Of a DNA stretch of 64,000 bases, positions 332-40,422 are shown in pieces. Below the pieces are notes generated by a model, which searched no databases, was not told the origin of the DNA, and saw only the letters and a program-made list of their open reading frames with translations. The stretch is from contig CALSFV010000046.1 in assembly GCA_943737045.1 (NCBI GenBank), forward strand, positions 186,001 through 250,000, read 5' to 3'. Each line of letters opens with the position of its first letter. Position 1 is the first letter of the stretch. The DNA comes from Parapristionchus giblindavisi. Lineage: Eukaryota > Nematoda > Chromadorea > Rhabditida > Diplogasteridae. The translations under genes and the position numbers were made by a program.

Positions 332-465
332 ATTTAGCATTTTGGCCTATGTGACCTCTTTTCAGGAATGGAAAAGTGATCGTATTCAGATTTTTTTTGC
401 TCTTTCACATGGTATACGACACGATAGGTATCGTTGCCATTTTCACATTTCACAAGTAATTTTTA

Positions 466-12700: not shown

Positions 12701-13030
12701 CATATAAGAGTAAAAGCTACTTTTGTACTTCGGCCATTGTGTCGACCGTAAAATAATACGGTTCGACATGAGCTGAAGAGTGTACGATTCAGAATTTTTT
12801 TCTCTTTCACATGGTATCTGACACGATTAGTATCGTTGATAATTTGACTTGTCATGAATTGTTTTGTAGCGAAAATGCAAAGAGTACTGGAAGATAATTT
12901 AGCATTTTGCCATATGTGACCTCTTTTCAGGAATGGAAAAGTGTATCGTATTCAGATTTTTTTGCTCTTTCACATGGTATACGACACGATAGGTATCGTT
13001 GCCATTTTCACATTTCACAAGTAATTTTTA
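9726..13030. repeat. Four-monomer higher-order repeat (1322 bp)
   Basis: Four recognisable monomer types repeat in order. They are: a TCTGACACG plus ACCGATTTCAGG type (from 9726, 11048, 12370); a TCTGACACG plus CATATGTGACCTC type; a GATAATT plus GTGATCG type (10387, 11709); and a TTAGTTTCGTTG type. Equivalent points are exactly 1322 bp apart. The final round decays into a doublet carrying TTGCCATATG at about 12909 and 13240, which are adjacent monomers. Confidence 0.75.
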
Positions 13031-13361
13031 TCATATAAGAGTAAAAGCTACTTTTGTACTTCGGCCATTGTGTCGACCGTAAAATAATACGGTTCGACAT
13101 GAGCTGAAGAGTGTACGATTCAGAATTTTTTTCTCTTTCACATGGTATCTGACACGATTAGTATCGTTGATAATTTGACTTGTCATGAATTGTTTTGTAG
13201 CGAAAATGCAAAGAGTACTGGAAGATAATTTAGCATTTTGCCATATGTGACCTCTTTTCAGGAATGGAAAAGTGTATCGTATTCAGATTTTTTTGCTCTT
13301 TCACATGGTATACGACACGATAGGTATCGTTGCCATTTTCACATTTCACAAGTAATTTTTA

Positions 13362-19300: not shown

Positions 19301-19861
19301 CACAAGTAATTTTTATCATATAAGAGTAAAAGCTACTTTTGTACTTCGGCCATTGTGTCGACCGTAAAATAATACGGTTCGACATGAGCTGAAGAGTGTA
19401 CGATTCAGAATTTTTTTCTCTTTCACATGGTATCTGACACGATTAGTATCGTTGATAATTTGACTTGTCATGAATTGTTTTGTAGCGAAAATGCAAAGAG
19501 TACTGGAAGATAATTTAGCATTTTGGCATATGTGACCGATTTCAGGAATGGAAAAGTGTATCGTATTCAGATTTTTTTGCTCTTTCACATGGTATACGAC
19601 ACGATAGGTATCGTTGCCATTTTCACATTTCACAAGTAATTTTTATCATATAAGAGTAAAAGCTACTTTTGTACTTCGGCCATTGTGTCGACCGTAAAAT
19701 AATACGGTTCGACATGAGCTGAAGAGTGTACGATTCAGAATTTTTTTCTCTTTCACATGGTATATGACACGATTAGTATCGTTGACAATTTGACTTGTCA
19801 TGAATTGTTTTGTAGCGAAAATGCAAAGAGTACTGGAAGATAATTTAGCATTTTGGCCTAT

Positions 19862-19867
19862 GTGACC
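19862..19867. repeat. Target-site duplication, left copy (GTGACC)
   Basis: The satellite reads CCTATGTGACC and then breaks off into AGTAGTATAGTACG. An uninterrupted monomer reads CCTATGTGACCGCTTTTC. GTGACC is repeated at 40417-40422, immediately after the other end of the insertion, where the satellite continues into GCTTTTCAGG. The two halves rebuild one normal monomer if one GTGACC is removed. Confidence 0.93.
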
Positions 19868-20300
19868 AGTAGTATAGTACGCAATGGAGGCCTCTTTTAC
19901 CGCACTACCAAGATCAAAGGATGCCGCCAGGTCATTAATCATTTTTTGACAGGTCATCAATCAAAAAGTGACAGAGCAGGGGGAGGGAAAGTGACAGGGT
20001 AGGGGGAGGGAAAGTGACAGGGTAGGGAGAGGGAAAGTGACAGGGTAGGGAGAGGGAGAAGTTAATTAATAAAGCTTATTGACAGCCTCATTAATCATAT
20101 CAGTTTATTATTTGTGACAGCATAGGGAGAGGCAAAAAACAAAAGCCTAGAGGGAGGGAGAAGCATAGAGGGAGGCAGAGTAAGTTAATCAACGGGGGAA
20201 ATGGTAGGGAGAGGCAGGGGAGGGAGACAGCCTAGACAGGAGAGAGGGAGAAGCATCTGGTGGCATCCCTAGTGCGGTAAAAGTAATCTCCACTGCGTAC
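19868..20300 (+). repeat. End module of left arm: ~430-bp mini-foldback
   Basis: The outer segment 19877-19929 (GTACGCAATGGAGG ... TTTTACCGCACTA ... GGATGCCGCCA) is repeated in inverted orientation at 20258-20300 (TGGTGGCATCCCTAGTGCGG ... TCCACTGCGTAC). The two differ by a few substitutions and about 10 extra bases in the outer copy. Between them are four 23-bp iterons and further purine-rich pieces of the kind TAGGGAGAGG, AGAGGGAGGGAGAAG and GACAGCCTAGACAGG. The module therefore looks like a MITE-like unit sitting at each end of the palindrome, or a double set of transposase-binding ends. Which enzyme would bind it is unknown. Confidence 0.75.
19968..20059 (+). repeat. Four 23-bp G-rich iterons
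   Basis: Units at 19968, 19991, 20014 and 20037, each starting GTGACAG and ending in a GGGAGGG or GAGAGGG run. They differ at 1-3 positions. Runs of three to five G in close succession (GGGTAGGGGGAGGG) could form a G-quadruplex on the + strand. Subterminal direct repeats of this kind often bind a transposase, but that is inference. A related AT-rich piece follows (TTAATTAATAAAGCTTATTG). Confidence 0.9.
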
Positions 20301-20337
20301 GGACAATATGAATAGCAAAAAACAACTGTATGATAAA

Positions 20338-20434
20338 GTGATTAGCCTTTTAATCGATCAGAGTTATAAGATCAAATGATATCTCATAGATCAAATGATA
20401 AGATCACCACAATCGATCAGCAAAAGGCAATCAC
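20338..20434 (+). repeat. Dyad-rich block inside left arm
   Basis: GTGATTAGCCTTTTAATCGA at 20338 is the imperfect reverse complement of the segment ending at 20434 (AATCGATCAGCAAAAGGCAA from 20411). Between them the motif AGATCAAATGAT occurs twice, at about 20370 and 20389. This gives a stem of about 20 bp with a repeat-containing loop. No gene is visible from 20300 to 20520. Confidence 0.6.
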
Positions 20435-20519
20435 GCACACGGACAGAGCAATAGAGAACACAACCACACGCGACACAAAAATAATAAAGAAATGAAGAGT
20501 AAGGGGCGGAGCCTAATTA

Positions 20520-20966
20520 TATCACATCTGAATCTCTAATGTCTCTCAATTTCCTATACTCTCTCCATTTCTCTGCATCTCTAATCTCTCTCAATGTCTC
20601 ATACTCTCTCTCCCTCTCTGTATCTCTAACCTCTCCATTTTTACATACTCTCTCTTCCTCTCTTTATCTCTAACCTCTCCTTCTTTTACATGCTCTCTCA
20701 CTTTTCGGCTCTCTTTCATATTGCATACTCTTTCTCTTTCTATAACCTCTCTCATTTTGCACACTATCTCTCTTTCTCTAACCTCTCTCAATCTCCCATA
20801 TTATCTCTCTCCTTCTTCGTATCACTAATCTCTCCATCATTACATACTCTCTCTCCCTTGCTCTGCATCTCTAACCTCGCTCAATCTCCCATATTCTCTC
20901 TCCCCTTCTTCGTACCGCTAACCTCTCCATCTATAACATACTCTCTCTCTCTCTCTCTCTCCCTCC

Positions 20967-21014
<48 letters not shown>

Positions 21015-22460
21015 GTTGCACCCCTCTACTCTACAACAACTCCATACTCTGTCTCTCTCTCTCGTTCTCTGCTTCTCTCTCAATCTCAATTTCTCATACT
21101 CTCTCACTTTTCATTACTCTTTCTTATTGTATACTCTTTTTATCTCTGCACTCTCTAATTTTTCACACTCTCTCCCTTTCTCTGCTACAATATCCTTTCT
21201 ACTCTTTCTCCTCCTCTGTCCTCTCTCAATTTCTCACACTATCTCTCTTTCTATAACCTCTTACTCTACCCTCTCTCACTTTACATACTATGTCTCTGTC
21301 TCTAACCTCTCTCATTTTTGCACACTCTCTCTCTCTTTCTCTGTGCTCTATCATTTTTGCATACTCTATTCTCTCCCGCTTCTGCTATTTCGCATTATCT
21401 GAAGGTTATGTCATTTGACCGTCTCTCTCTATGTACTCTCTCTATGGTACATACTCTATCACCACACCATATGGTCATGCGAAGGCTGTTCTACCTCTCT
21501 CTCTCTCTCTTTAGCAACAAAACATAACAAGAATCAGATACCAATTTGAATAGCTAAAAAGAACTAATACTAAGCATACAGTACTTGACCAGAGTTACAG
21601 TATACTTCCTACTCTTTCTGTACTATCTCATTTTCTCATACTCTCTCCCTTCCTCTGCATCTTTAATCTCTCTCATTCTCTCATACTCTCTTCTGCCGAG
21701 AGAAACGAAGGCCCCGTTCTCTGCTGCTCTCCCCTCTTCATCCTTTTCATACTCTCTCACTATCTCTGCATCTTTGTGCTCTCTTATCTACTAATGCTCT
21801 CTCTCCCACTTCTCTAATTCTCTGTTCTCTATCATTTTCACCCACTCTCGTCAAATATGAAATTTGAATTGCTACAGTAATCCCTCTCGAACTGTTTCTT
21901 AATATCCACATTTGAATAGCTAGCTCCAAACAGACCTTCTATCTCTCTGCTCTCTCTCTCTCTATTTTATACACTCTCTAATTTTCTCTACATCTTGTCA
22001 CTCTCCATCATTTGCATACTCTCTCCCTCTCTCTTGCTCGGCATCTCGGCATTCTTTAATTATATACTAATTACTCTCTTTCTCTGAACTCTCTCATCTA
22101 TACATGTCTTTGCCTTTGTGCTCTATCATTTTTGCATACTCTATCTCTGTCTCTCTTTATCTGTTTAGCATATGGCAATGGAAGCGCTGTTCTACCTCTC
22201 TATATCTTCTTTCTCTACATCTCTACTATCTCCATCTTTTCACAGTATCTCTCAGTCCCTGTGTCTTCACCCTAGCTTTTTTTATATATCTTTAGGAGAG
22301 ATTTGAACAAAAATAGTTAATCATTTTAGCTCTTCTACTCACTCTCTTCATCTATTTCGCAATATATACAAGCGATATGAATAGTGGGGCGAATGGATCA
22401 TCTCTCTTTCTCTTTCTTTACACTCTCAAATTTGCAAACACTCGCAAAACACCATATAGT
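20520..22460 (+). repeat. Pyrimidine-rich degenerate minisatellite, left arm
   Basis: Nearly 2 kb in which the + strand is mostly C and T. Loose units contain CATACTCTCTC, TCTCTAACCTCTC, TCAATCTCCCATATT and CTCTGCATCTCTAA. One clear pair of diverged copies starts at 20788 and 20881, 93 bp apart. Leucine/serine-rich open frames here exist because CT-rich sequence lacks stop codons; they carry no domain and are not called as genes. The tract can form purine-pyrimidine triplex structures in principle. Confidence 0.85.
20941..21011 (+). repeat. (CT)n microsatellite, left arm
   Basis: A 71-bp dinucleotide tract with a few C or CC interruptions. The partner in the right arm (39271-39343) is 73 bp, one of the few places where the arms differ, as expected from replication slippage. 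Confidence 0.95.
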
Positions 22461-22720
22461 CATGAAAAGGCTATTCGATCTGACCTCAGTAACAATAAGA
22501 AGTGGATGAAAATTAAATGGATATATACAAATTGCACATAATAAGCGATCTGCGCGATTGGATCAAGTGGTCAAATTAGGCGACTCCATATGAACCTTCT
22601 CCCTCTTGTACAAACACTCTCATCTACAACATATGGTTATGGAAAAGCTATTCAAATCAGCTCTCTTTAGCAACGAAAGAACTCTATGAATTTGGAATAG
22701 TCATTATATACAATAGTAGA
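21465..22720 (+). repeat. Four diverged copies of a CATATGG motif block
   Basis: CACCATATGGTCATGCGAAG (21465), CATATGGCAATGGAAGCG (22169), ACCATATAGTCATGAAAAGG (22451) and CATATGGTTATGGAAAAGC (22630) share the order CATATGGTNATG, then GGCTGTTC or AGCTATTC. In copies 1 and 4 this is followed by CTCTCTTTAGCAAC. A companion piece TTTGAATAGCT occurs at about 21548 and 21909. These are remnants of an older repeat inside the CT-rich region. Confidence 0.6.
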
Positions 22721-23112
22721 AACGATAATAATTATTGTAAACATAATTAATGATTATCCAATAAGATCAACGAACAAGTGATAAAATTACCCAATTGACA
22801 GTATTTGGCAATCAGTAGACTAACCTTTGAGGACCGCGACCGGTTGATTGTCTTATGGCAGAGCTTATTAATTATCCTTATCTCTAATTATCTATTTCAT
22901 ATAATTCTCTTATACTCGACATGTTCTCTCACAGGAAAGGAGCGCTGCTCTTAATTTACATTCTATACCATCTCTCTTTATCTCTATACTTCCTACTGTA
23001 GTTCTCTATATATTTCCTTCTCTTTCTACTCTTTTCTCTATCTATCTTAAATCTGTGACACTTTTTGATCTTCTATCCCTCTCTATCATACTCTCTCTCC
23101 TAGCATTTTTAA
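22721..23112. other. AT-rich stretch, nothing recognised (left arm)
   Basis: AT-rich to about 22915, then CT-rich again to about 23100 (CTCTCTCCTAGCATTTTTAAG at the end, which resembles a polypyrimidine tract plus AG). No gene, RNA or further repeat could be identified. The mirror region is about 37170-37561. Confidence 0.5.
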
Positions 23113-23398
23113 GCAGCCGACAAAAGGAAGACAAACGATCAGAAGGAGTCAGAGGTGAAACCTGCTGATGACACGAAGAATACAGACGCAAAACCACATA
23201 GTGACCCGACCACATAAAGGAGACAGATATTAAGGATACAGGCAATGCAAAGAAGCCAGAACCAGCAGACATAAAGAAGCCCAATGATGTCAAGAAAAGT
23301 CAGGCACTAAGGGCGTGAAGAAGAAGGAGGATACAATAACACACATTGAATCCACACAAACAGGCACAAAGGAACGAAAGAATACCTTCCAGAAGGGG
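23113..23398 (+). pseudogene. Lysine/acidic-rich coding-like fragment with frame breaks
   Basis: Three short open stretches follow each other in different + strand frames, all with the same charged, proline-containing composition. They are 23113-23214 (34 codons, containing KESEVKPADDTKNTDAKP), 23217-23315 (33 codons, containing NAKKPEPADIKKPNDVKK), and about 23288-23398 (containing TKGVKKKEDT, then stop). The shared composition across frame changes suggests a decayed low-complexity tail of a protein. The alternative is that A-rich DNA encodes K and E in any frame by chance. No family is recognised. It is preceded by a pyrimidine tract ending TTTTTAAG, which could be an old splice acceptor. 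The mirror copy is on the minus strand at 36884-37169. Confidence 0.25.
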
Positions 23399-24269
23399 TA
23401 AAGCAGTTACTAAACATTCATCTCCTAAATAAATGGAAGCGCTTAGGGGAACGTGGAACAATCATCAAAATTAGAATCTACACATTTTAGTCATATTATT
23501 ACTGACATAGGACATCCGCGCTAGCGTAATTCTACTGAAATAAAACGCTCAGAAGTAAAACAATTTTTGGCTCTGCCCCTAGCACTAGTTTTTACTGACA
23601 TAAGACAGTGCATACAGAAGCATAACTTACTCCTTTTCACGAAATTCTCAAAGATTGCATAGCGTTTGGTTATGATGATCAGTATGGTAGCATCTATTTA
23701 TACTATAAAGAGAATGCCAAAATCCTATAGTCTTCATCGAGATATGTGCGGTCTTTCATCGACTTAATAAAATTTCACCGTGCCTAATGATGACTCCATT
23801 CATATGTCTGATATTGTTTGATAGGGATCTCGTATATTAGATTCAATAGTTGCCAAAATACAATAAAAAGCGAGAAAATTGTTTTTGCATACTCTCTCAC
23901 TTTTTTCCTTTTCATTACTTTTGAACATCACATTAGCGATTAGATGATGGAGGGATTACATTATATTGCCGATTTTTCCTTCTTACAAATCCCGGTCACA
24001 TAATTCTGCAGACATAGAAATAGAGAGAGCCATGAAGGGGGGGAAATAGAGTTAGATAAAGATAGTTAAATAGAAACGTAAATCAAAGACAGATTCAGTT
24101 TTCCAGTCATCGATTACGCTTTTATACTTTTCTCATAAGATGATCATACCATTGAGAGGGATATGTAAGGATAGTAATAACAATAAAATAAAGAAGAAAA
24201 CCAAGTTAACGAATAAGGGAAGATGTAGTCTCACCAATTTGCTATCATAGCCGATCTCTGTATTGCCAC
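23399..24269. other. AT-rich non-coding stretch (left arm)
   Basis: No gene, RNA or clear repeat seen. It holds scattered stop codons in all frames and a short local GAGAGAG patch near 24020. The mirror region is about 36013-36883. Confidence 0.5.
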
Positions 24270-25025
24270 CTATGCGCGTTCATAAAGTCATTTCACGAAT
24301 GTTCCCATTGAGGGACTTTCCTGCAGATAATATGCTTGCGACGCGTAATCATAGAAACTCAGTTATGGGATTTTACCAATTGAATTTAACGAAATCAGAA
24401 GAAGGATGGTATTTCTAGGAAGAAGAAGGATGGTATTTCCAGATTGTTGAGAGTGCTCACATTCCACGTTAACCAAAATTTTAGAGTATTAGTACAGTGA
24501 AAAATATTAGCCACTCCATAAGCGTTGTTGGTTTGCAGTGCTACTTATATTGTCAAGGTTGGGCGTTCTATCCTCCTTTAGAGCAATGATTTTAAAATAA
24601 TGATTTTAACCATATTAACGATGCTTTCTCACTGTAGGCATAGTGTCACCAGCAAGAGTTATTTCTAGCCAACCGCAATACATATGATAAAGTGATACTA
24701 GTTGAATAAGATTCTTCTGAACTAGTATGTTTTAAAGTTATGCCGCTTTTTGGTTGATCTTTGGACAATTTGTATCTGATTAACACTGAAATTTAATTAT
24801 TTGATCATAGAACTATCTCACATGGTTTAAAAGGGATCTCTTATTCTTTGTTCAAAAGTTCTCACAGCATTGTACAGGAGAAGAAATGAGAGTCATTGAA
24901 GACTTTCGTAAATTGATTACACAAGTGTTTATATTGAGGGACTTTACAAGTCGAGAATATACTTGCAAATGAAGACGCGTAATCACGTCATGGAAGCTCA
25001 GTGATGGTATTTTAACAACTGAAGA
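24270..25025 (+). repeat. Pair of diverged direct repeats, about 625 bp apart
   Basis: The segment near 24280-24380 and the one near 24905-25020 share ordered blocks. These are ATTGAGGGACTTT (24308 and 24933), then AATATGCTTGC / AATATACTTGC, GACGCGTAATCA in both, CTCAGTTATGG / CTCAGTGATGG, and GGGATTTTACCAATTGAA / GGTATTTTAACAACTGAA. Similarity is roughly 70 percent by eye. A small tandem duplication of GAAGAAGGATGGTATTTC lies at about 24399-24440. The blocks are non-coding and of unknown origin. Confidence 0.7.
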
Positions 25026-26281
25026 AGAATCAAGGGTTTTTCCTCGTAATAGGCATGACTTTATTGTCTAAAATACTTTGTACCACGTTTTGAAATAGTT
25101 TCACTATTACTTTACGAATAGTCGCGCGAATTTCGTTCTCTGTACTTAAGAATTACTTAAGGCTCAATGATTGAAACATGCAGTTGATATCAACATGAAC
25201 ATGTTTCAAGGAAGATCCATTTTATTTATATTATACCAATAAACACTATTCATCATAACAAATGAAGTGCAAGAAAGAAAAAAAGGAAGATAATTATATA
25301 CGACTATCCCCTCAAAGTGAAGGATTAAATAAAACCAACCTACCATAAATCCCTGAAAAATTTGTAAAAGTGCCAAAAGAAGTCTGCTCGCGCGCTAACA
25401 CCACATATACTCTTGTGGTACAAGCCATTACTGTATTTTAAAACTTAGAAATTGAGTGGTAAGCCGGATCTCGCTGCTGGCCTTTATTATAAACAAATAG
25501 ATCAGGGGAATGATGCGCATACGTCTGAACGCACCAGCCAGCATATGTCGATTGTATTGATAAGTCGTTAGAAAGTAATTGAAGAATCTTACAGTTTCCA
25601 TTCATACGCAATGACAAAATACGAGCGAACATTCTATAGTCATTTTGGAAAGGAAGGAGCTGTCCAATATTAATGTATAAGATCAAGACAGCTGCTAAAC
25701 TCTGCTGTTTTACGTAAATGTTTGAGAATAAATGTAAATATGAAGTGAAATCAACAATGCTCCAAACGACAAAATAAGCGTTATCAACATTTTAACAGTT
25801 CGTATGGTTTGTATAAGTTGATTCATAGCATGACATTGTATCTCGAAGCAGATCGGCTTGACATTATAATGGAAGAATCATATGAAAATATTTATAACAA
25901 CGGCATATCTGCCATTTTGGTAATTTCATCCACTGGAATCTCATTGTATCTAACAAGAGGTGTTTGGCTAAAAACTGGCGATCTGGTCGAATACTTCCTT
26001 TGTTTTGTGATATGAGCTCATTAATTTTGGCTCATGAACATTGAAAAAACCTTAAATTCGCGTATTTGCAGCACTGCCTAGGTGTATATTCAAGGTGGTA
26101 TGTCTTCCTCTCGCTACAAAAGCTCTTTGAAATAACACTTCTTAACGCACTCATAGTATTCAGCATATAGTTGCCACCTTCCTCTACTTTCACATTTGGC
26201 TTGTAGATTGTGAGGTGCGAGTACAAACTATCTAAAACGGTTCCTATCGACGGAGTAAATCATGATATAAAATATAAACAG
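25026..26281. other. AT-rich non-coding stretch (left arm)
   Basis: Several open frames of 60-82 codons occur, but none has a recognisable domain or start context. An exact 25-bp sequence beginning CACTCATAGTATTCAGCATA at 26148 recurs at 26465. Nothing else is identified. The mirror is about 34000-35255. Confidence 0.45.
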
Positions 26282-27090
26282 ATTGATGAAAGGCTCACAA
26301 AGACACACATTAATAAAATAAAAGAACTTGCATTGAGTGTTCATTGCAGGACTTTTAGTGAGTGTTCACTACCATCATAAACAGATATGCACCTTAGGAA
26401 GCGTAGCCATGTAATAGGTTTCTTGGTCTTAAACATATTTTGGTTTATATGACTGTACACCAGACACTCATAGTATTCAGCATATAGTTAACAGCGTAGT
26501 ATTCTATAAGCAGATGTGTCATATCTGAATTACAGTACTGCCGTTACTGACAAAATACTGGGAGAGACAGAACAAGTGATCTAAGAAGCAACTAAAACAA
26601 GTGAGTTAGAATATATGCTCAGTGCACACTTGCCACCTCATGATATGTCTTAGTATTGCCATTAAAGTAATTGATTTCTGAATGATTGACAGTAAGAGGC
26701 ATAATATGGTCATACAGAAGAAATCAACGTTTAATGAGTGAATAAACATCTCTAACAAGAAGGACCATGTAGAACAAGGCAACCAAACAATTTTTTATCG
26801 AGCTCAAATTGATGAAAGCGTCGAAAGAGACATGCTTGAATAAAAATGTGGGTGATGTACCATGAAATCTTCACAAACAACGTTGCAGATGAGCCATATT
26901 TAGAAATACAAACAGCGGTGTGCGTTATGAAGCTTATTGTTAGTCATGAATTAGGTGGATGGATCTTGTGCATAATTGGGGTTATATGTCTGTACACCAT
27001 ACGCGAACTATTGAACAACATTGAATCGTTTATGCAGATCTGTTATATCTCTATTGTTGTACAGCCGTTTCTCATAAAAACACTTCTCAT
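26282..27090 (+). repeat. Pair of diverged direct repeats, about 530 bp apart
   Basis: Copy 1 (about 26280-26560) and copy 2 (about 26809-27090) share, in order: ATTGATGAAAG; AAACAG followed by GAAGCGTAG / GAAGCTTAT; GGTTTATATGACTGTACACC (26442) / GGTTATATGTCTGTACACC (26980); and GCAGATGTGTCATATCTG / GCAGATCTGTTATATCTC with TACTGCCGTT / TACAGCCGTT. Identity is about 65 percent. The GAAGCGTAG block also faintly resembles GACGCGTAA of the 24.3-25.0 kb pair, so all four may be one old repeat family. A 124-codon open frame at 26846-27220 lies in copy 2 and is not preserved in copy 1. Confidence 0.6.
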
Positions 27091-29441
27091 AAAAAGAACT
27101 TCTATTACTTTTGACGTATCACAACATATTTTTTTCTTTCTTATGAATCACAACACATTGCACCGTGTCCTATCTTTACATACAGCTAAACGTCGGACAA
27201 TGGAGAGGTACACATTATAAAGTGATATGATGCACATGATGGAAACTCCTTTTCCATAGATAATTGTGAGTATTGAATACAGTGACTTTTACCAAAGTTT
27301 AGAATTTATCCAAATTACGTAGATCTGATATCTTCAATGCATAGAGATATTACATATATATAAAAGTCTTGCATGTATTGATAATGTTGTGGCCATTTAT
27401 GGATCATTCTACCTTGGAGAGGTTTTAGGTAGCTCTATGAGTTGTATCTGACTGGAGAAATTGAGTAACTGAGCGCCTGAGATGATGGATAAAGGAGAAC
27501 GGGAAAGGGTTCAATGGAAATGATAGTTGAAAACACCGGTCTGTGGTGTGATAGATAGTATTGAATCGGTGTAGATCACAATGTGCGTGAAAACTCACAA
27601 TAGTGTATTTTGATAGGAATGCATAAGCGCAAGCATGCAGATGTTATAGTGTTATTCGTCAGCTCAGAATATCTAAAGTAGAATGGTATACATTTTCAAA
27701 TATCACATCACCTAGAAGTTATACTTTCCAATGTCCCAACTGTTCCTTTATATACTACTGGTCACTCAATCATTAGGTATTCGATGTACTGTCAAAAGAG
27801 ATATTTCCGTAAAAATCAGCAATCATTGTTTTGAGGCCTGATGTAAATATGCCTACTTTTGAATGGGGTAGGCTTAAGAGCTTTCTTTCTGTTATTTACC
27901 CGTTAGTCTCCTTCCTATTCTATTTGCAACTAGAAATCACTCTTTCTCTCAAACATCTATGTAGACATCCTAGATGACACATCAACGTCATCCAAATTTA
28001 TACAGCAATGAAATTTGTCCACAATGAGTAGCACAATCATACTTGAACATACTATAAACATTACAACGCTGATCATCTGAGAGCTTTTTTCGTCTTCTTT
28101 TCACACACTTCCAGTAGATAGCATCGAATAATAATTAGAATAGAATTACTGAAAACATGGAGGGATGTTCAATTTGTTGTTGTTATCTAAGAATGTAAAA
28201 ACCTTGACGACAGATTGATTATAGTAACGAGAGTATACACAGCCATATTCTAAGAGATTACAAATTTGATGATTACATGTCAAAAACTCTCTGGTGGTTG
28301 AATAGTTATGTTAAAGTATAACTTTCGATCGTATACAATATTGTAGTCTACCATTCGTATTCTCAATATAATGGTGTGATCTTTGATATTATGAGCTATG
28401 AGTGCATTTATCGAGACGAAACTAAATCGGCTGTGAGGTAAATCATAACGTGGACTATTTATGGTGTGATGCTAGACGGTTAACCATGCGAGATTTAGTT
28501 GTTTGCATGTGTATAATGAATCAAGTTGGCATCTCCTTTAGTCTATATTAGTAGCCATCCCTTATAAAAATGTCAGCTGAAAGACTTGTGAACTTATCTA
28601 TGTGTCTTCGTTGGGTACGCAACATGTGATGCAGCATGATCAATTACAATAAACGCCATATACAACATGTAATGTAATTGTAACAGTGAACATATGCTAA
28701 AATTGGAACCGTACAGAGAAGATTAACATCATACTGTTCGATGACGCAAATAGTGTCGTTAATTATATATTCAATATGTTCAAACATGAAACAAAAGATG
28801 GCATATGAAAATAGTTTAAAAATGGTTCAGTACATGCAATATAAGTACATCCAATCATTTATATGCTAATAATCGTGAAATAATTGTTGTTCTTTCTAGT
28901 CCTGACGAACGGAGGTCACCAATGTCTTGTCTAATTCCCTTATGAGAAGGGTATGCAGGCCCCAGTAAAAGAAATAGTCTCAGTACTGTCATACCATCGT
29001 ATCGGTGTGCATATCAACTTGTTGATAAAAAAATATCGGATTTGTGAATCTTCTTATTGCCCCTAGATAGAACCACTAAAATCGTATGGACAGGTGTTAA
29101 ATTGTGGGTGAGGTATCGCTGAATAAGAATCGTGTCAACATATTCGAAAATAATGAGGACTGAATCGGATGTGGTTGAGATGCTCTAGCCTTCTGTAGGA
29201 AGTACATCAATTCGAAATGCTTTGTTCAAGTGAATAGTATGTCAATGGTTACATGGATTTGTTCCAACATCTTCCAGTTCGTCTGTACATATTTACTCGA
29301 ATACTCGCCGTATGTGGCGCAATCGTAGTAGAGGAGAGATTCATCTCAGCATTACAAGCTTACAGAACACCACAGATTCATTGATTTCATGATATTTTGA
29401 GGTGCGCCCCTCACGTTTGAGAAGGACAACTATAGAGTCAT
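27091..29441. other. AT-rich non-coding inner part of left arm
   Basis: No gene, RNA gene or strong repeat is visible in these 2.3 kb. All frames are closed frequently. The phrase TGGTGTGAT recurs at about 27544, 28371 and 28462, near ATCGGTGT / ATCGGCTGTG, hinting at further diverged repeats, but I could not align them convincingly. The arm ends at 29441. Confidence 0.5.
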
Positions 29442-30841
29442 CTGTTTTCGTAAACTCATAGATGAGAAAATTGCTAGCTATTTCTTATTTTTCCTTCTCG
29501 GAGAGATATTTTTCTTCATTCAAGAAAACTCCAAATTGTTCATCGAAGTACAAATGAAAACGTTGTTACAGTCCACTTGGATTACCGAACTGTACCTCCA
29601 GACATTACAAACTCTTCCAAAAGAGTTTTACGATGTTGATCCTGTCTGTTGATAGAAAAGACGTGAGTGCAAGGACGAGAGTAGTCGAACCGACCACAGA
29701 TCGAAAAATATGCATACCACGACAATATGACAAGAGTAAAACTTGAATTTTAACGGTTGCTATTGTTTCGAAAATGTGAAACATCTCGAATTATTATTTT
29801 TTAAGCGTCTTATAAATGACCTAATGTATTCTTGAATATACAGATACTCAAGTTTATACACTCACGGTGAACTATCTCAAACAATCAGTGGCGAATTAAG
29901 GTCAGGCAATACGAGTTAATGGACAAATACATGCAAGTACAATCCACAAGACGCCCTACTTGCGCTACCTGGACATGATTTCACTCATTGTCTTTACTAC
30001 CTCCTTGTCCTTGTCCTTCATTGGGAGACGTGCAACCTCTGCCTTATTTGATTTTCTTACCTTGACACATTTTCTAAGAACGGCTTTAAGACTGCAACTG
30101 TCACACATATGAGACTCTCCAGTATGGTTCTCTCCGAAACAATTCAGCTAGATAATCACTATCTAAGTCGTTTGCCGTGATATTGCGTTTTGCCACGTTT
30201 TTCCTGATCTGCTAATCAACATTCTGTATACTAGATCAACGAAAACTTTATCAATCGAACAGCTAAACCACTTCTTCAACAGCACAGCTACTTAGATCAT
30301 AGTAACATTAATGTTTAGATTATTTTTGGGGTTTTCGTAAGTATGAAATACTGTAGCGCTTGACAAAATATAGGAATACTATCGCATGACATCATATTTT
30401 ATTACCTTGTTTACTCAAACTGAACATCTCAGATCAATGCTATGCCAGTAATAATTCAAGCCCACGGTCCTGAAGGCCTAATCTTTTCTTAGGACCTACT
30501 TTAATCATGTAGAAGTTAGTAGTTTAGTAACAAGGTGTAGTACATAAAGCATGATGCCTATAGCAAAGTATGAGGAGAGGAAAGAAGGATTAATATACAA
30601 AGAATCCCTACTCTTGTTGACACTCGATAGATGCATTGATATATTTCCTTACAAATCTTGAAAAAGAGTGTACAACTGCAAAACAAACGATCCAATCATT
30701 AGTTTTCTAGTCTAGATCGATAGAATGAATGCTTTAAAGACCATTCACTTGAGGTGTCCAAAATTAATTATTTGGTGAAATTTAGTATAATATATACAAA
30801 GGATTATTGTTTACACTCATCGTATGTGTTGTCTAAAACAT
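29442..30841. other. Central spacer of the palindrome (1.4 kb, unpaired)
   Basis: The only part of the element without an inverted partner. For about the first 25 bases (29442-29466 against 30820-30841) a weak inverted similarity continues (CTGTTTTCG against the complement of GTCTAAAACA, then CATAGATGAG against the complement of CTCATCG). After that the two sides are unrelated. One exon-like stretch lies on the minus strand at 29965-30211. Apart from that the spacer is AT-rich and closed in all frames. Confidence 0.8.
29965..30211 (-). pseudogene. Exon-like relic with HTGE...CxxC motif in the spacer
   Basis: Reading the minus strand, the frame 30147 to 29965 (60 codons and stop) contains HTGESHMCDSC, which recalls the HTGEKPYxCxxC linker and first knuckle of C2H2 zinc fingers. 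The expected F, L and two H of a full finger are absent. After the lysine codon at 30061-30063 comes GTAAGA, a good splice-donor consensus. A second frame, 30211 to 30101, is open for 36 codons and contains NDLDSDYLAELFRREPYWRV, which also looks protein-like; it begins just after TAGCAG. The two frames overlap, so at most one is right locally, or a frameshift separates them. This may be a decayed host or transposon exon, or chance. Confidence 0.25.
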
Positions 30842-33193
30842 ATGACTCTATAGTTGTCCTTCTCAAACGTGAGGGGCGCACCTCAAAATATCATGAAATC
30901 AATGAATCTCTGGTGTTCTGTAAGCTTGTAATGCTGAGATGAATCTCTCCTCTACTACGATTGCGCCACATACGGCGAGTATTCGAGTAAATATGTACAG
31001 ACGAACTGGAAGATGTTGGAACAAATCCATGTAACCATTGACATACTATTCACTTGAACAAAGCATTTCGAATTGATGTACTTCCTACAGAAGGCTAGAG
31101 CATCTCAACCACATCCGATTCAGTCCTCATTACTTTCGAATATGTTGACACGATTCTTATTCAGCGATACCTCACCCACAATTTAACACCTGTCCATACG
31201 ATTTTAGTGGTTCTATCTAGGGGCAATAAGAAGATTCACAAATCCGATATTTTTTTATCAACAAGTTGATATGCACACCGATACGATGGTATGACAGTAC
31301 TGAGACTATTTCTTTTACTGGGGCCTGCATACCCTTCTCATAAGGGAATTAGACAAGACATTGGTGACCTCCGTTCGTCAGGACTAGAAAGAACAACAAT
31401 TATTTCACGATTATTAGCATATAAATGATTGGATGTACTTATATTGCATGTACTGAACCATTTTTAAACTATTTTCATATGCCATCTTTTGTTTCATGTT
31501 TGAACATATTGAATATATAATTAACGACACTATTTGCGTCATCGAACAGTATGATGTTAATCTTCTCTGTACGGTTCCAATTTTAGCATATGTTCACTGT
31601 TACAATTACATTACATGTTGTATATGGCGTTTATTGTAATTGATCATGCTGCATCACATGTTGCGTACCCAACGAAGACACATAGATAAGTTCACAAGTC
31701 TTTCAGCTGACATTTTTATAAGGGATGGCTACTAATATAGACTAAAGGAGATGCCAACTTGATTCATTATACACATGCAAACAACTAAATCTCGCATGGT
31801 TAACCGTCTAGCATCACACCATAAATAGTCCACGTTATGATTTACCTCACAGCCGATTTAGTTTCGTCTCGATAAATGCACTCATAGCTCATAATATCAA
31901 AGATCACACCATTATATTGAGAATACGAATGGTAGACTACAATATTGTATACGATCGAAAGTTATACTTTAACATAACTATTCAACCACCAGAGAGTTTT
32001 TGACATGTAATCATCAAATTTGTAATCTCTTAGAATATGGCTGTGTATACTCTCGTTACTATAATCAATCTGTCGTCAAGGTTTTTACATTCTTAGATAA
32101 CAACAACAAATTGAACATCCCTCCATGTTTTCAGTAATTCTATTCTAATTATTATTCGATGCTATCTACTGGAAGTGTGTGAAAAGAAGACGAAAAAAGC
32201 TCTCAGATGATCAGCGTTGTAATGTTTATAGTATGTTCAAGTATGATTGTGCTACTCATTGTGGACAAATTTCATTGCTGTATAAATTTGGATGACGTTG
32301 ATGTGTCATCTAGGATGTCTACATAGATGTTTGAGAGAAAGAGTGATTTCTAGTTGCAAATAGAATAGGAAGGAGACTAACGGGTAAATAACAGAAAGAA
32401 AGCTCTTAAGCCTACCCCATTCAAAAGTAGGCATATTTACATCAGGCCTCAAAACAATGATTGCTGATTTTTACGGAAATATCTCTTTTGACAGTACATC
32501 GAATACCTAATGATTGAGTGACCAGTAGTATATAAAGGAACAGTTGGGACATTGGAAAGTATAACTTCTAGGTGATGTGATATTTGAAAATGTATACCAT
32601 TCTACTTTAGATATTCTGAGCTGACGAATAACACTATAACATCTGCATGCTTGCGCTTATGCATTCCTATCAAAATACACTATTGTGAGTTTTCACGCAC
32701 ATTGTGATCTACACCGATTCAATACTATCTATCACACCACAGACCGGTGTTTTCAACTATCATTTCCATTGAACCCTTTCCCGTTCTCCTTTATCCATCA
32801 TCTCAGGCGCTCAGTTACTCAATTTCTCCAGTCAGATACAACTCATAGAGCTACCTAAAACCTCTCCAAGGTAGAATGATCCATAAAATGGCCACAACAT
32901 TATCAATACATGCAAGACTTTTATATATATGTAATATCTCTATGCATTGAAGATATCAGATCTACGTAATTTGGATAAATTCTAAACTTTGGTAAAAGTC
33001 ACTGTATTCAATACTCACAATTATCTATGGAAAAGGAGTTTCCATCATGTGCATCATATCACTTTATAATGTGTACCTCTCCATTGTCCGACGTTTAGCT
33101 GTATGTAAAGATAGGACACGGTGCAATGTGTTGTGATTCATAAGAAAGAAAAAAATATGTTGTGATACGTCAAAAGTAATAGAAGTTCTTTTT

Positions 33194-33999
33194 ATGAGAA
33201 GTGTTTTTATGAGAAACGGCTGTACAACAATAGAGATATAACAGATCTGCATAAACGATTCAATGTTGTTCAATAGTTCGCGTATGGTGTACAGACATAT
33301 AACCCCAATTATGCACAAGATCCATCCACCTAATTCATGACTAACAATAAGCTTCATAACGCACACCGCTGTTTGTATTTCTAAATATGGCTCATCTGCA
33401 ACGTTGTTTGTGAAGATTTCATGGTACATCACCCACATTTTTATTCAAGCATGTCTCTTTCGACGCTTTCATCAATTTGAGCTCGATAAAAAATTGTTTG
33501 GTTGCCTTGTTCTACATGGTCCTTCTTGTTAGAGATGTTTATTCACTCATTAAACGTTGATTTCTTCTGTATGACCATATTATGCCTCTTACTGTCAATC
33601 ATTCAGAAATCAATTACTTTAATGGCAATACTAAGACATATCATGAGGTGGCAAGTGTGCACTGAGCATATATTCTAACTCACTTGTTTTAGTTGCTTCT
33701 TAGATCACTTGTTCTGTCTCTCCCAGTATTTTGTCAGTAACGGCAGTACTGTAATTCAGATATGACACATCTGCTTATAGAATACTACGCTGTTAACTAT
33801 ATGCTGAATACTATGAGTGTCTGGTGTACAGTCATATAAACCAAAATATGTTTAAGACCAAGAAACCTATTACATGGCTACGCTTCCTAAGGTGCATATC
33901 TGTTTATGATGGTAGTGAACACTCACTAAAAGTCCTGCAATGAACACTCAATGCAAGTTCTTTTATTTTATTAATGTGTGTCTTTGTCCTTTCATCAAT
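33194..33999 (-). repeat. Mirror copy of the ~530-bp diverged repeat pair
   Basis: Reverse complement of 26282-27090. This copy lacks three bases present in the left arm: it reads ...CTTTGTCCTTTCATCAATC near 33981-33999, where the left arm has GGCTCACAAAG. Confidence 0.6.
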
Positions 34000-35255
34000 C
34001 TGTTTATATTTTATATCATGATTTACTCCGTCGATAGGAACCGTTTTAGATAGTTTGTACTCGCACCTCACAATCTACAAGCCAAATGTGAAAGTAGAGG
34101 AAGGTGGCAACTATATGCTGAATACTATGAGTGCGTTAAGAAGTGTTATTTCAAAGAGCTTTTGTAGCGAGAGGAAGACATACCACCTTGAATATACACC
34201 TAGGCAGTGCTGCAAATACGCGAATTTAAGGTTTTTTCAATGTTCATGAGCCAAAATTAATGAGCTCATATCACAAAACAAAGGAAGTATTCGACCAGAT
34301 CGCCAGTTTTTAGCCAAACACCTCTTGTTAGATACAATGAGATTCCAGTGGATGAAATTACCAAAATGGCAGATATGCCGTTGTTATAAATATTTTCATA
34401 TGATTCTTCCATTATAATGTCAAGCCGATCTGCTTCGAGATACAATGTCATGCTATGAATCAACTTATACAAACCATACGAACTGTTAAAATGTTGATAA
34501 CGCTTATTTTGTCGTTTGGAGCATTGTTGATTTCACTTCATATTTACATTTATTCTCAAACATTTACGTAAAACAGCAGAGTTTAGCAGCTGTCTTGATC
34601 TTATACATTAATATTGGACAGCTCCTTCCTTTCCAAAATGACTATAGAATGTTCGCTCGTATTTTGTCATTGCGTATGAATGGAAACTGTAAGATTCTTC
34701 AATTACTTTCTAACGACTTATCAATACAATCGACATATGCTGGCTGGTGCGTTCAGACGTATGCGCATCATTCCCCTGATCTATTTGTTTATAATAAAGG
34801 CCAGCAGCGAGATCCGGCTTACCACTCAATTTCTAAGTTTTAAAATACAGTAATGGCTTGTACCACAAGAGTATATGTGGTGTTAGCGCGCGAGCAGACT
34901 TCTTTTGGCACTTTTACAAATTTTTCAGGGATTTATGGTAGGTTGGTTTTATTTAATCCTTCACTTTGAGGGGATAGTCGTATATAATTATCTTCCTTTT
35001 TTTCTTTCTTGCACTTCATTTGTTATGATGAATAGTGTTTATTGGTATAATATAAATAAAATGGATCTTCCTTGAAACATGTTCATGTTGATATCAACTG
35101 CATGTTTCAATCATTGAGCCTTAAGTAATTCTTAAGTACAGAGAACGAAATTCGCGCGACTATTCGTAAAGTAATAGTGAAACTATTTCAAAACGTGGTA
35201 CAAAGTATTTTAGACAATAAAGTCATGCCTATTACGAGGAAAAACCCTTGATTCT

Positions 35256-36012
35256 TCTTCAGTTGCTAAAATACCATCACTGAGCTTCCATGACGTGATT
35301 ACGCGTCTTCATTTGCAAGTATATTCTCGACTTGTAAAGTCCCTCAATATAAACACTTGTGTAATCAATTTACGAAAGTCTTCAATGACTCTCATTTCTT
35401 CTCCCTGTACAATGCTGTGAGAACTTTTGAACAAAGAATAAGAGATCCCTTTTAAACCATGTGAGATAGTTCTATGATCAAATAATTAAATTTCAGTGTT
35501 AATCAGATACAAATTGTCCAAAGATCAACCAAAAAGCGGCATAACTTTAAAACATACTAGTTCAGAAGAATCTTATTCAACTAGTATCACTTTATCATAT
35601 GTATTGCGGTTGGCTAGAAATAACTCTTGCTGGTGACACTATGCCTACAGTGAGAAAGCATCGTTAATATGGTTAAAATCATTATTTTAAAATCATTGCT
35701 CTAAAGGAGGATAGAACGCCCAACCTTGACAATATAAGTAGCACTGCAAACCAACAACGCTTATGGAGTGGCTAATATTTTTCACTGTACTAATACTCTA
35801 AAATTTTGGTTAACGTGGAATGTGAGCACTCTCAACAATCTGGAAATACCATCCTTCTTCTTCCTAGAAATACCATCCTTCTTCTGATTTCGTTAAATTC
35901 AATTGGTAAAATCCCATAACTGAGTTTCTATGATTACGCGTCGCAAGCATATTATCTGCAGGAAAGTCCCTCAATGGGAACATTCGTGAAATGACTTTAT
36001 GAACGCGCATAG
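35256..36012 (-). repeat. Mirror copy of the ~625-bp diverged repeat pair
   Basis: Reverse complement of 24270-25025. The substitution at 35266 (C, against A at 25015 on the left) lies inside it. The blocks AAAGTCCCTCAAT (about 35337 and 35963) and TGATTACGCGTC (about 35297 and 35931) mark the two copies. Confidence 0.7.
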
Positions 36013-36883
36013 GTGGCAATACAGAGATCGGCTATGATAGCAAATTGGTGAGACTACATCTTCCCTTATTCGTTAACTTGGTTTTCTTCTTTATTTTATT
36101 GTTATTACTATCCTTACATATCCCTCTCAATGGTATGATCATCTTATGAGAAAAGTATAAAAGCGTAATCGATGACTGGAAAACTGAATCTGTCTTTGAT
36201 TTACGTTTCTATTTAACTATCTTTATCTAACTCTATTTCCCCCCCTTCATGGCTCTCTCTATTTCTATGTCTGCAGAATTATGTGACCGGGATTTGTAAG
36301 AAGGAAAAATCGGCAATATAATGTAATCCCTCCATCATCTAATCGCTAATGTGATGTTCAAAAGTAATGAAAAGGAAAAAAGTGAGAGAGTATGCAAAAA
36401 CAATTTTCTCGCTTTTTATTGTATTTTGGCAACTATTGAATCTAATATACGAGATCCCTATCAAACAATATCAGACATATGAATGGAGTCATCATTAGGC
36501 ACGGTGAAATTTTATTAAGTCGATGAAAGACCGCACATATCTCGATGAAGACTATAGGATTTTGGCATTCTCTTTATAGTATAAATAGATGCTACCATAC
36601 TGATCATCATAACCAAACGCTATGCAATCTTTGAGAATTTCGTGAAAAGGAGTAAGTTATGCTTCTGTATGCACTGTCTTATGTCAGTAAAAACTAGTGC
36701 TAGGGGCAGAGCCAAAAATTGTTTTACTTCTGAGCGTTTTATTTCAGTAGAATTACGCTAGCGCGGATGTCCTATGTCAGTAATAATATGACTAAAATGT
36801 GTAGATTCTAATTTTGATGATTGTTCCACGTTCCCCTAAGCGCTTCCATTTATTTAGGAGATGAATGTTTAGTAACTGCTTTA

Positions 36884-37169
36884 CCCCATCTGGAAGGTAT
36901 TCTTTCGTTCCTTTGTGCCTGTTTGTGTGGATTCAATGTGTGTTATTGTATCCTCCTTCTTCTTCACGCCCTTAGTGCCTGACTTTTCTTGACATCATTG
37001 GGCTTCTTTATGTCTGCTGGTTCTGGCTTCTTTGCATTGCCTGTATCCTTAATATCTGTCTCCTTTATGTGGTCGGGTCACTATGTGGTTTTGCGTCTGT
37101 ATTCTTCGTGTCATCAGCAGGTTTCACCTCTGACTCCTTCTGATCGTTTGTCTTCCTTTTGTCGGCTGC
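36884..37169 (-). pseudogene. Mirror copy of the lysine/acidic-rich fragment
   Basis: Identical to 23113-23398 on the opposite strand except for the substitution at 36888, near the end of the last open stretch (CAGAAGGGG on the left, CAGATGGGG here, which changes a lysine codon to methionine). The same three frames and the same frame breaks are present, so the breaks predate the arm duplication or were copied between arms. Confidence 0.25.
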
Positions 37170-37821
37170 TTAAAAATGCTAGGAGAGAGAGTATGATAGA
37201 GAGGGATAGAAGATCAAAAAGTGTCACAGATTTAAGATAGATAGAGAAAAGAGTAGAAAGAGAAGGAAATATATAGAGAACTACAGTAGGAAGTATAGAG
37301 ATAAAGAGAGATGGTATAGAATGTAAATTAAGAGCAGCGCTCCTTTCCTGTGAGAGAACATGTCGAGTATAAGAGAATTATATGAAATAGATAATTAGAG
37401 ATAAGGATAATTAATAAGCTCTGCCATAAGACAATCAACCGGTCGCGGTCCTCAAAGGTTAGTCTACTGATTGCCAAATACTGTCAATTGGGTAATTTTA
37501 TCACTTGTTCGTTGATCTTATTGGATAATCATTAATTATGTTTACAATAATTATTATCGTTTCTACTATTGTATATAATGACTATTCCAAATTCATAGAG
37601 TTCTTTCGTTGCTAAAGAGAGCTGATTTGAATAGCTTTTCCATAACCATATGTTGTAGATGAGAGTGTTTGTACAAGAGGGAGAAGGTTCATATGGAGTC
37701 GCCTAATTTGACCACTTGATCCAATCGCGCAGATCGCTTATTATGTGCAATTTGTATATATCCATTTAATTTTCATCCACTTCTTATTGTTACTGAGGTC
37801 AGATCGAATAGCCTTTTCATG

Positions 37822-39267
37822 ACTATATGGTGTTTTGCGAGTGTTTGCAAATTTGAGAGTGTAAAGAAAGAGAAAGAGAGATGATCCATTCGCCCCACTA
37901 TTCATATCGCTTGTATATATTGCGAAATAGATGAAGAGAGTGAGTAGAAGAGCTAAAATGATTAACTATTTTTGTTCAAATCTCTCCTAAAGATATATAA
38001 AAAAAGCTAGGGTGAAGACACAGGGACTGAGAGATACTGTGAAAAGATGGAGATAGTAGAGATGTAGAGAAAGAAGATATAGAGAGGTAGAACAGCGCTT
38101 CCATTGCCATATGCTAAACAGATAAAGAGAGACAGAGATAGAGTATGCAAAAATGATAGAGCACAAAGGCAAAGACATGTATAGATGAGAGAGTTCAGAG
38201 AAAGAGAGTAATTAGTATATAATTAAAGAATGCCGAGATGCCGAGCAAGAGAGAGGGAGAGAGTATGCAAATGATGGAGAGTGACAAGATGTAGAGAAAA
38301 TTAGAGAGTGTATAAAATAGAGAGAGAGAGAGCAGAGAGATAGAAGGTCTGTTTGGAGCTAGCTATTCAAATGTGGATATTAAGAAACAGTTCGAGAGGG
38401 ATTACTGTAGCAATTCAAATTTCATATTTGACGAGAGTGGGTGAAAATGATAGAGAACAGAGAATTAGAGAAGTGGGAGAGAGAGCATTAGTAGATAAGA
38501 GAGCACAAAGATGCAGAGATAGTGAGAGAGTATGAAAAGGATGAAGAGGGGAGAGCAGCAGAGAACGGGGCCTTCGTTTCTCTCGGCAGAAGAGAGTATG
38601 AGAGAATGAGAGAGATTAAAGATGCAGAGGAAGGGAGAGAGTATGAGAAAATGAGATAGTACAGAAAGAGTAGGAAGTATACTGTAACTCTGGTCAAGTA
38701 CTGTATGCTTAGTATTAGTTCTTTTTAGCTATTCAAATTGGTATCTGATTCTTGTTATGTTTTGTTGCTAAAGAGAGAGAGAGAGAGGTAGAACAGCCTT
38801 CGCATGACCATATGGTGTGGTGATAGAGTATGTACCATAGAGAGAGTACATAGAGAGAGACGGTCAAATGACATAACCTTCAGATAATGCGAAATAGCAG
38901 AAGCGGGAGAGAATAGAGTATGCAAAAATGATAGAGCACAGAGAAAGAGAGAGAGAGTGTGCAAAAATGAGAGAGGTTAGAGACAGAGACATAGTATGTA
39001 AAGTGAGAGAGGGTAGAGTAAGAGGTTATAGAAAGAGAGATAGTGTGAGAAATTGAGAGAGGACAGAGGAGGAGAAAGAGTAGAAAGGATATTGTAGCAG
39101 AGAAAGGGAGAGAGTGTGAAAAATTAGAGAGTGCAGAGATAAAAAGAGTATACAATAAGAAAGAGTAATGAAAAGTGAGAGAGTATGAGAAATTGAGATT
39201 GAGAGAGAAGCAGAGAACGAGAGAGAGAGACAGAGTATGGAGTTGTTGTAGAGTAGAGGGGTGCAAC

Positions 39268-39317
<50 letters not shown>

Positions 39318-39764
39318 GGAGGGAGAGAGAGAGAGAGAGAGAGTATGTTATAGATGGAGAGGTTAGCGGTACGAAGAAGGGGAGAGAGAATATGGGAGAT
39401 TGAGCGAGGTTAGAGATGCAGAGCAAGGGAGAGAGAGTATGTAATGATGGAGAGATTAGTGATACGAAGAAGGAGAGAGATAATATGGGAGATTGAGAGA
39501 GGTTAGAGAAAGAGAGATAGTGTGCAAAATGAGAGAGGTTATAGAAAGAGAAAGAGTATGCAATATGAAAGAGAGCCGAAAAGTGAGAGAGCATGTAAAA
39601 GAAGGAGAGGTTAGAGATAAAGAGAGGAAGAGAGAGTATGTAAAAATGGAGAGGTTAGAGATACAGAGAGGGAGAGAGAGTATGAGACATTGAGAGAGAT
39701 TAGAGATGCAGAGAAATGGAGAGAGTATAGGAAATTGAGAGACATTAGAGATTCAGATGTGATA
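37822..39764 (-). repeat. Purine-rich degenerate minisatellite, right arm
   Basis: Reverse complement of 20520-22460, so the + strand is mostly A and G (GAGAGAGTATG, GTTAGAGATGCAGAG, AGAGAGGTTAGAG). The four CATATGG-motif copies lie inside or beside it at about 37640, 37820, 38107 and 38810. The open frames here are arginine/glutamate-rich and result from composition, not coding. Confidence 0.85.
39271..39343 (-). repeat. (AG)n microsatellite, right arm
   Basis: A 73-bp AG tract with a few GG interruptions, the partner of 20941-21011 and 2 bp longer. Confidence 0.95.
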
Positions 39765-39849
39765 TAATTAGGCTCCGCCCCTTACTCTTCATTTCTTTAT
39801 TATTTTTGTGTCGCGTGTGGTTGTGTTCTCTATTGCTCTGTCCGTGTGC

Positions 39850-39946
39850 GTGATTGCCTTTTGCTGATCGATTGTGGTGATCTTATCATTTGATCTATGA
39901 GATATCATTTGATCTTATAACTCTGATCGATTAAAAGGCTAATCAC
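39850..39946 (-). repeat. Dyad-rich block inside right arm
   Basis: Reverse complement of 20338-20434: TTGCCTTTTGCTGATCGATT at about 39854 faces AATCGATTAAAAGGCTAATC-type sequence near 39926-39946, with two copies of ATCATTTGATCT between. Confidence 0.6.
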
Positions 39947-39983
39947 TTTATCATACAGTTGTTTTTTGCTATTCATATTGTCC

Positions 39984-40416
39984 GTACGCAGTGGAGATTA
40001 CTTTTACCGCACTAGGGATGCCACCAGATGCTTCTCCCTCTCTCCTGTCTAGGCTGTCTCCCTCCCCTGCCTCTCCCTACCATTTCCCCCGTTGATTAAC
40101 TTACTCTGCCTCCCTCTATGCTTCTCCCTCCCTCTAGGCTTTTGTTTTTTGCCTCTCCCTATGCTGTCACAAATAATAAACTGATATGATTAATGAGGCT
40201 GTCAATAAGCTTTATTAATTAACTTCTCCCTCTCCCTACCCTGTCACTTTCCCTCTCCCTACCCTGTCACTTTCCCTCCCCCTACCCTGTCACTTTCCCT
40301 CCCCCTGCTCTGTCACTTTTTGATTGATGACCTGTCAAAAAATGATTAATGACCTGGCGGCATCCTTTGATCTTGGTAGTGCGGTAAAAGAGGCCTCCAT
40401 TGCGTACTATACTACT
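39984..40416 (-). repeat. End module of right arm: ~430-bp mini-foldback
   Basis: Reverse complement of 19868-20300, with inner inverted repeat 39984-40026 (GTACGCAGTGGAG ... GGATGCCACCA) and outer 40355-40407 (TGGCGGCATCC ... TCCATTGCGTAC). No difference from the left module was seen. Its last base, 40416, abuts the right target-site duplication. Confidence 0.75.
40225..40316 (-). repeat. Four 23-bp C-rich iterons, right arm
   Basis: Mirror of 19968-20059; on the + strand each unit reads CCCTACCCTGTCACTTT within a C-rich run. The G-rich strand here is the minus strand, so both element ends present the same strand polarity relative to their terminus. Confidence 0.9.
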
Positions 40417-40422
40417 GTGACC
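40417..40422. repeat. Target-site duplication, right copy (GTGACC)
   Basis: Follows directly after CGTACTATACTACT and is followed by GCTTTTCAGGAATGG, the normal continuation of the satellite monomer. It matches 19862-19867. The preceding T on both sides would allow a 7-bp reading, but the terminal symmetry of the element favours 6 bp. Confidence 0.93.

Follow-up and report, generated by a model that had tools for sequence, protein, structure and literature searches.

What kind of element is a palindrome of more than 20 kb that interrupts a satellite array, and how could it have arisen? To answer this, we analyzed a stretch of 64,000 nucleotides from the nematode Parapristionchus giblindavisi (contig CALSFV010000046.1, positions 186,001 to 250,000; hereafter the window), in which a forward-strand array of period 331 bp lies on either side (1..19867 and 40417..64000) of an insert of 20,549 bp (19868-40416). 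A preliminary description of this DNA had proposed a self-contained transposable insertion that duplicated 6 bp of its target, and copies of GTGACC indeed flank the insert at 19862..19867 and 40417..40422. When the insert was excised together with exactly 6 bp of the right flank, 80 of 80 positions around the join matched the array, compared to 49-77 of 80 for the nine alternatives in which 0-5 or 7-9 bp were dropped. The joined 662 bp had 120 end-to-end matches elsewhere in the array, 98.0-100% identical and one of them perfect (662/662), as expected from the earlier claim that removal of the insert and one GTGACC restores the satellite. These footprints show that the palindrome entered as one piece, duplicating 6 bp of target, and confirm the 20.5-kb insert as a genuine mobile element. 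The 331-bp satellite monomer is itself composed of two diverged halves (period 168, 66% matches).

The architecture of the insert was likewise as first described (inverted repeats of about 9.6 kb with 1.4 kb unpaired). We measured a left arm of 9,599 bp (19868..29466, forward strand), which starts with AGTAGTATAG, a right arm of 9,601 bp (30816..40416, reverse strand), which finishes with CTATACTACT, and an unpaired centre, or loop, of about 1.35 kb (29467..30815), to which related single-copy centres are present in other palindromes. The arms are 99.9% identical when only substitutions are considered and 99.8% with gaps counted; the outermost 1,144 bp at both ends are exact inverted copies, and CT-rich internal repeats lie near the ends. 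The element is thus almost entirely inverted repeat and, as the preliminary description had noted for transposition genes, has no visible gene: it holds no long open reading frame (ORF), nothing above cut-off was obtained with Pfam on 8 ORFs of the window, and neither a transposase nor the gene set of autonomous Polintons (virus-like DNA transposons), which comprises capsid, ATPase, protease, integrase and a protein-primed polymerase (PolB), was represented by a long ORF or family match. Its ends match those of Polintons.

If the insert is mobile, other copies should end at the same bases, and the search of the 251-Mb P. giblindavisi genome found them (C-numbers such as C45 and C163 denote its contigs). 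The first 433 bp of the element gave at least 50 matches, many of which form inverted pairs separated by 20-49 kb. When up to 2 mismatches were allowed, the terminal motif occurred 71 times in forward and 66 times in reverse orientation, versus 14 and 17 times for a reversed control. Because only part of the candidates was scored (40/84 for the first 433 bp, 40/104 for a 1.8-kb arm piece, 40/256 for the centre and 40/927 for further end-class sets), the locus counts are lower bounds. Among the best 40 of 104 candidates, the arm piece was present in inverted pairs at at least 17 places, including that of the window (C46, C386, C268, C30, C20, C362, C218, C135, C91, C206, C79, C51, C6, C348, C232, C660 and C216), and the addition of C231 brings the palindromic loci to at least 18. 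Since identical ends and the palindrome recur at many other loci, the insert is more than a chance structure, and the non-autonomous family suspected earlier does exist.

Ends were read for 17 palindromes, those of the window and C37 included, and left unread for C79 and C216. A perfect, plain 6-bp duplication was observed in 15 of the 17; the duplication of C231 is displaced (GCTGTA, 588040-588045 and 611206-611211) and C37 has none. Three empty copies of the repeat that C231 entered reveal the displacement: aligned over 368 bp spanning the joined site, they are 97.6%, 97.6% and 95.4% identical (gap-free in two, one gap opening in the third). C218 and C91 are inserted in relatives of the window satellite (78-81%) and differ by only 0.11% over a 3.6-kb segment, which therefore indicates recent movement; no such satellite was found around the other four of six elements tested.

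The arms pair over almost their full length in the six elements fetched nearly whole (C660, C231, C348, C6, C218 and C91), with one outer kilobase of the C660 arm pairing at 91%. Sizes of 20.4-21.9 kb were found for 12 of 16 tabulated palindromes of the window's end class; outside this table, C79 (about 49 kb) and C216 (about 41 kb) were judged by end positions. Longer palindromes contain inserts where inspected, namely in C660, one arm of which carries a nested palindrome of a second type (C660:139178-145549, about 6.4 kb) with ends TACAGTACAGCCC and an apparent TA duplication, of the kind made by Tc1/mariner elements. At the other hits of the arm-piece search a palindrome was absent or undecidable: C483 and C266 have one arm, the match in C484 leaves the contig, and C247 and C651 have a single match. 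The 11.5-kb element at C483:25824-37364, whose loop region begins within 0.1 kb of the left terminus, seems to be a palindrome that lost one arm. A second end class (GCGCTTTGG) has palindromes of its own, with C37 as the read example, and ten more sets with other end classes or unread ends (C46:308934-328377, C57, two in C216, C30:630-643 kb, C43, C33, C651, C245 and C37:61-72 kb) are based on inverted match pairs only. End pairs just 0.2, 0.57 and 1.2 kb apart (C652:706730-706929, C76:313487-314060 and C57:581013-582207) may be miniature elements that share these termini; at C203:2109355-2113396 the terminus occurs three times in a single orientation, with a spacing of about 1.9 kb.

The preliminary description had considered such an element to be of no standard category. 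This does not hold, as two gene-bearing, non-palindromic elements of the genome have ends of this kind and are likewise flanked by 6-bp duplications, namely C163 (21,598 bp, terminal repeats of about 880 bp at 97%) and C3 (18,764 bp, terminal repeats of about 1,035 bp at 99.8%). ORFs of C163 match Pox_A32, the adenovirus endoprotease and the rve integrase, and short PolB_2 matches lie within both elements, one of the two in C163 being below cut-off. A further PolB_2 match, inside a 1,207-aa open frame at C384:94463-96397, marks another Polinton-like polymerase. On the forward strand of the window, the outer 171 bp (19868..20038, mirror copy 40246-40416) are 88.5% identical to the end of C163, and a second stretch (20253..20702, mirror about 39582-40031) is 85-86% identical to the C163 terminal repeat (element positions 386-835). 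The ends of C37 and C3 are 84.5% identical. Further inside, a short, decayed remnant of a Polinton gene (23614..23818, forward strand, element positions 3747-3951; mirrored in the right arm) matches the 515/645-aa ORF of unknown function of C163/C3 (E 1e-7, 1e-8), and is also present in C483, C218 and C91.

Intact vertebrate Mavericks have (AGT)2//(ACT)2 or (AG)3//(CT)3 ends, 6-bp duplications, terminal repeats of 46-1,447 bp (PMC8097293) and total sizes of 12.7-24.6 kb (PMC8097293; PMC6431247). The window element resembles them by its AGTAGT...ACTACT termini, which are (AGT)2//(ACT)2, its 6-bp duplication, its total size and a terminal repeat homologous to, and ends shared with, the gene-bearing Polintons of its host. 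It differs in being gene-less and almost wholly palindromic, with repeats of about 9.6 kb where autonomous Polintons have short ones. As it has no long ORF or family match, it can be filed only as a derivative, and its sequence identifies it as a palindromic, non-autonomous Polinton/Maverick derivative. The shared ends further suggest that a Polinton integrase acts in trans on the palindromes.

How a Polinton could become a palindrome is suggested by C45. The 445-aa ORF of C3 had 14 matches in the genome, including one equal-scoring inverted pair, at C45; from its place in the Polinton gene order, we take this 445/447-aa ORF of C3, C163 and C45 to be the putative capsid gene, while no Pfam, NCBIfam or PDB-sequence match was obtained for it. 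C45:663876-680811 is a palindrome of 16,936 bp with the duplication CGTATA, in the same end class as the window palindromes; its 8,413-bp arms differ by 2 mismatches and enclose a loop of 110 bp. Both arms consist of a Polinton's right half, 97.5% identical to C163 over 6.5 kb and 96% over 1 kb, with ends at 84-93%. Checks of both arms confirmed ORFs for the protease (Peptidase_C5) and the integrase (rve), and the 447-aa ORF also lies in both; C45 was not among the loci matched in the searches with PolB_2 and with the ATPase. Followed from its right end, one strand reaches C163 position 24329, turns to 24440 and returns, with about 1 bp shared at the turn. One half of the genome is thus inverted and duplicated around a short loop, with the same terminus twice, and this is exactly the structure that self-priming of a displaced strand would leave, pointing to a snap-back origin. 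The window arms are too decayed to be judged in this way. Equal-scoring inverted pairs were also observed for another Polinton ORF (64 matches; pairs at C103, C150, C29, C281 and C226) and for the ATPase (17 matches; pair at C211), with a spacing of 4.5-12.7 kb. These pairs, known as inverted matches only, suggest that such events recurred, the other Polinton half and more distant Polintons included.

We then compared the arms with each other. Over a 3.6-kb segment in seven elements, the two arms of one element were 0-0.11% apart, versus 0.11-18.2% between elements, and in a tree the arms were sisters in 6 of the 7, those of C91 joining C218 at an unresolved fork. Relative to the window, both arms of C348, C6 and C37 carry an inner block in inverted orientation, which is easier to obtain by copying than by two parallel inversions. 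Two loci carry what look like traces of arm-to-arm copying that overran the element end into the host flank. On its left side, C231 has 13 bp of an old end, which departs from the usual terminus by one base; 251 bp copied from the right flank in inverted orientation come next, and then a second complete terminus. At C37, the two flanks share an inverted duplication of 1,232 bp that is 100% identical; the right flank continues past the break in register with many copies of a repeat while the left flank differs there, and the left is therefore the copy. The adjoining high-copy repeat (C37:200886-201902, about 1 kb), with inverted halves at 87-91%, belongs to a further palindromic repeat family.

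The remaining mismatches between arms are concentrated next to the loop: with six elements pooled (C660 and C37 outside the test, and the last 40 bp beside the loop excluded), we counted 14/3,590 in the inner 600 bp versus 30/53,437 outside (p 2.8e-7). For these profiles, alignment blocks under 60-250 bp or outside the symmetric pairing were dropped before counting. The inner arms of C51 differ in 29/856 columns and those of C79 in 1/702. Three differences specific to one arm recur in both C218 and C91, where they keep the same phase relative to the loop; transposition therefore carries both arms along. In C51, two of these variants are in opposite phase, as exchange between arms would leave them.

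A coding function of the arms was rejected. Besides the null result with Pfam, codon-phase bias over the 3.6-kb segment in 6 elements reached p 0.006 at its strongest among 163 overlapping windows, and 115 of 838 pairwise indels in the same data were multiples of three in length.

Taken together, these results make it probable, in our view, that the window element is a palindromic Polinton/Maverick derivative that was born by snap-back, inserted as a unit, lost its genes by decay and was maintained by copying between its arms. Starting from the case of C45, a linear element would replicate from a protein primer, and a displaced strand with one end would fold back, prime itself and be copied; the product would be a palindrome built from one half-Polinton, with an identical terminal repeat at either end. 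As the footprints show, such a palindrome enters the chromosome as one piece and leaves a 6-bp duplication, presumably through a Polinton integrase supplied in trans; the genes would then decay into the non-coding arms of the window copy, whose insertion site was a satellite array. In the chromosome, one arm would be copied onto the other, the stretch next to the loop being homogenised least, and because of this copying the arms would stay nearly identical while copies diverge. Protein-primed replication of these elements, and any packaging of them, are inferred.

Several observations weigh against this scheme. C45 is the sole gene-bearing palindrome read as DNA; the window arms match Polinton genes in one short remnant only, so a half-Polinton ancestor is inferred for them, and no Polinton gene match was found in the arms of C660, C231, C348, C6 and C37. 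As for maintenance, the outer arm of C660, beyond its insert, is more diverged, with no simple gradient of proximity to the loop; C91 alone has no inner excess (1/592 vs 8/8,872), and the contrast between outer and inner arm is weak in C37 (1/7,276 vs 4/2,378, p 0.015).

Other explanations have to be set against the same data. False palindromes are known to arise from fold-back chimeras, and one arm might be real with the other a mirror made by the library or the assembler. Such an artefact is very unlikely, given the matching 6-bp duplications in 15 of 17 read palindromes, the perfectly restored satellite, real differences between arms, some of them common to the separate loci C218 and C91, and two flanks that are unrelated in inverted orientation, agreeing at 35-60 of 150 positions, in the 14 duplication-bearing palindromes compared. 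A giant foldback element of the Foldback/Galileo type, unrelated to Polintons and with 6-bp duplications by chance, would also be non-autonomous and nearly all inverted repeat, and the CT-rich repeats near the ends recall the long, internally repetitive repeats that PMC3573991 describes for Galileo/Foldback. We hold it to be improbable, because the outer parts are 85-88% like gene-bearing Polintons of the same genome (as the ends of C37 are like those of C3), the arms hold a Polinton gene remnant and the half-Polinton palindrome C45 has the same end class.

The remaining two alternatives concern the moment at which the palindrome is made. It could have formed in place after insertion, by an inverted duplication of arm and flank through break-induced copying, and the inverted copies of host flank at C37 and C231 are what this would produce; in the other 15 of 17, however, the palindrome ends at termini with a 6-bp duplication, and centres and arms are common to different loci and end classes, which leaves little probability for an origin in place. 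Alternatively, snap-back could rebuild the palindrome from a single arm at each round of replication, making chromosomal copying between arms unnecessary. Identity far higher within than between elements would then be expected, as would mismatches mostly in the inner arm, the would-be primer stem. Against this, C231 and C37 record copying within the chromosome, and the inner-arm variants common to C218 and C91 survived transposition on both arms; we regard per-cycle rebuilding as unlikely in place of conversion, alongside which it may operate.

Copying one half of a linear genome back as a palindrome has a counterpart in adeno-associated virus, which makes 5' and 3' snap-back genomes with both halves found (PMC8235507). 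C45 is likewise half a linear genome with one end, and the inverted ORF pairs hint at the other half; the viral forms are packaged genomes of a hairpin-primed parvovirus, whereas the P. giblindavisi palindromes are chromosomal insertions. For Foldback/Galileo of Drosophila, PMC3573991 describes non-autonomous copies made mainly of long inverted repeats and ends extended by inverted recruitment, as here, but Galileo has repeats of about 0.3-1.26 kb, a P-superfamily transposase and different ends. The same paper cites others for an expansion of Polinton inverted repeats, and we therefore claim no priority; among the open-access titles and abstracts examined, Repbase lying outside the search, none concerned a palindromic or non-autonomous Polinton.

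The palindromes of sex chromosomes also keep near-identical arms, through arm-to-arm gene conversion, but they are immobile and hold host genes. More tentatively, and with somewhat less than even confidence, palindromic half-Polintons could form a recurrent and long-lived satellite class, arising by snap-back from either half, inserted by the integrase of a helper, about as long as that helper (roughly 18-22 kb) and preserved by copying between arms while encoding nothing. The gene-bearing C163, whose end class is similar to that of the window palindromes, measures 21.6 kb; in the end class of C3, the gene-bearing C3 (18.8 kb) and the palindromic C37 (18.6 kb) are close in size, and a capsid-size limit on length is a possibility; gene-bearing copies are too few to decide, common descent explains the lengths equally, and the palindromic C45, at only 16.9 kb, speaks against such a limit.

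The linear, protein-primed replication of Polintons has been argued from gene content. A chromosomal insertion made of exactly one half-genome copied back, either outer end of which could serve for insertion, would record in physical form how such replication goes wrong, and the gene-less palindromes would be the Polinton counterpart of defective or satellite genomes. Palindromes this large are usually regarded as unstable, and those of P. giblindavisi offer natural measurements of gene conversion at such a size. For annotation, some elements called 'foldback' or 'unknown inverted repeat' may be Polinton derivatives, and with a relative such as C45 the origin of the palindromes becomes testable.

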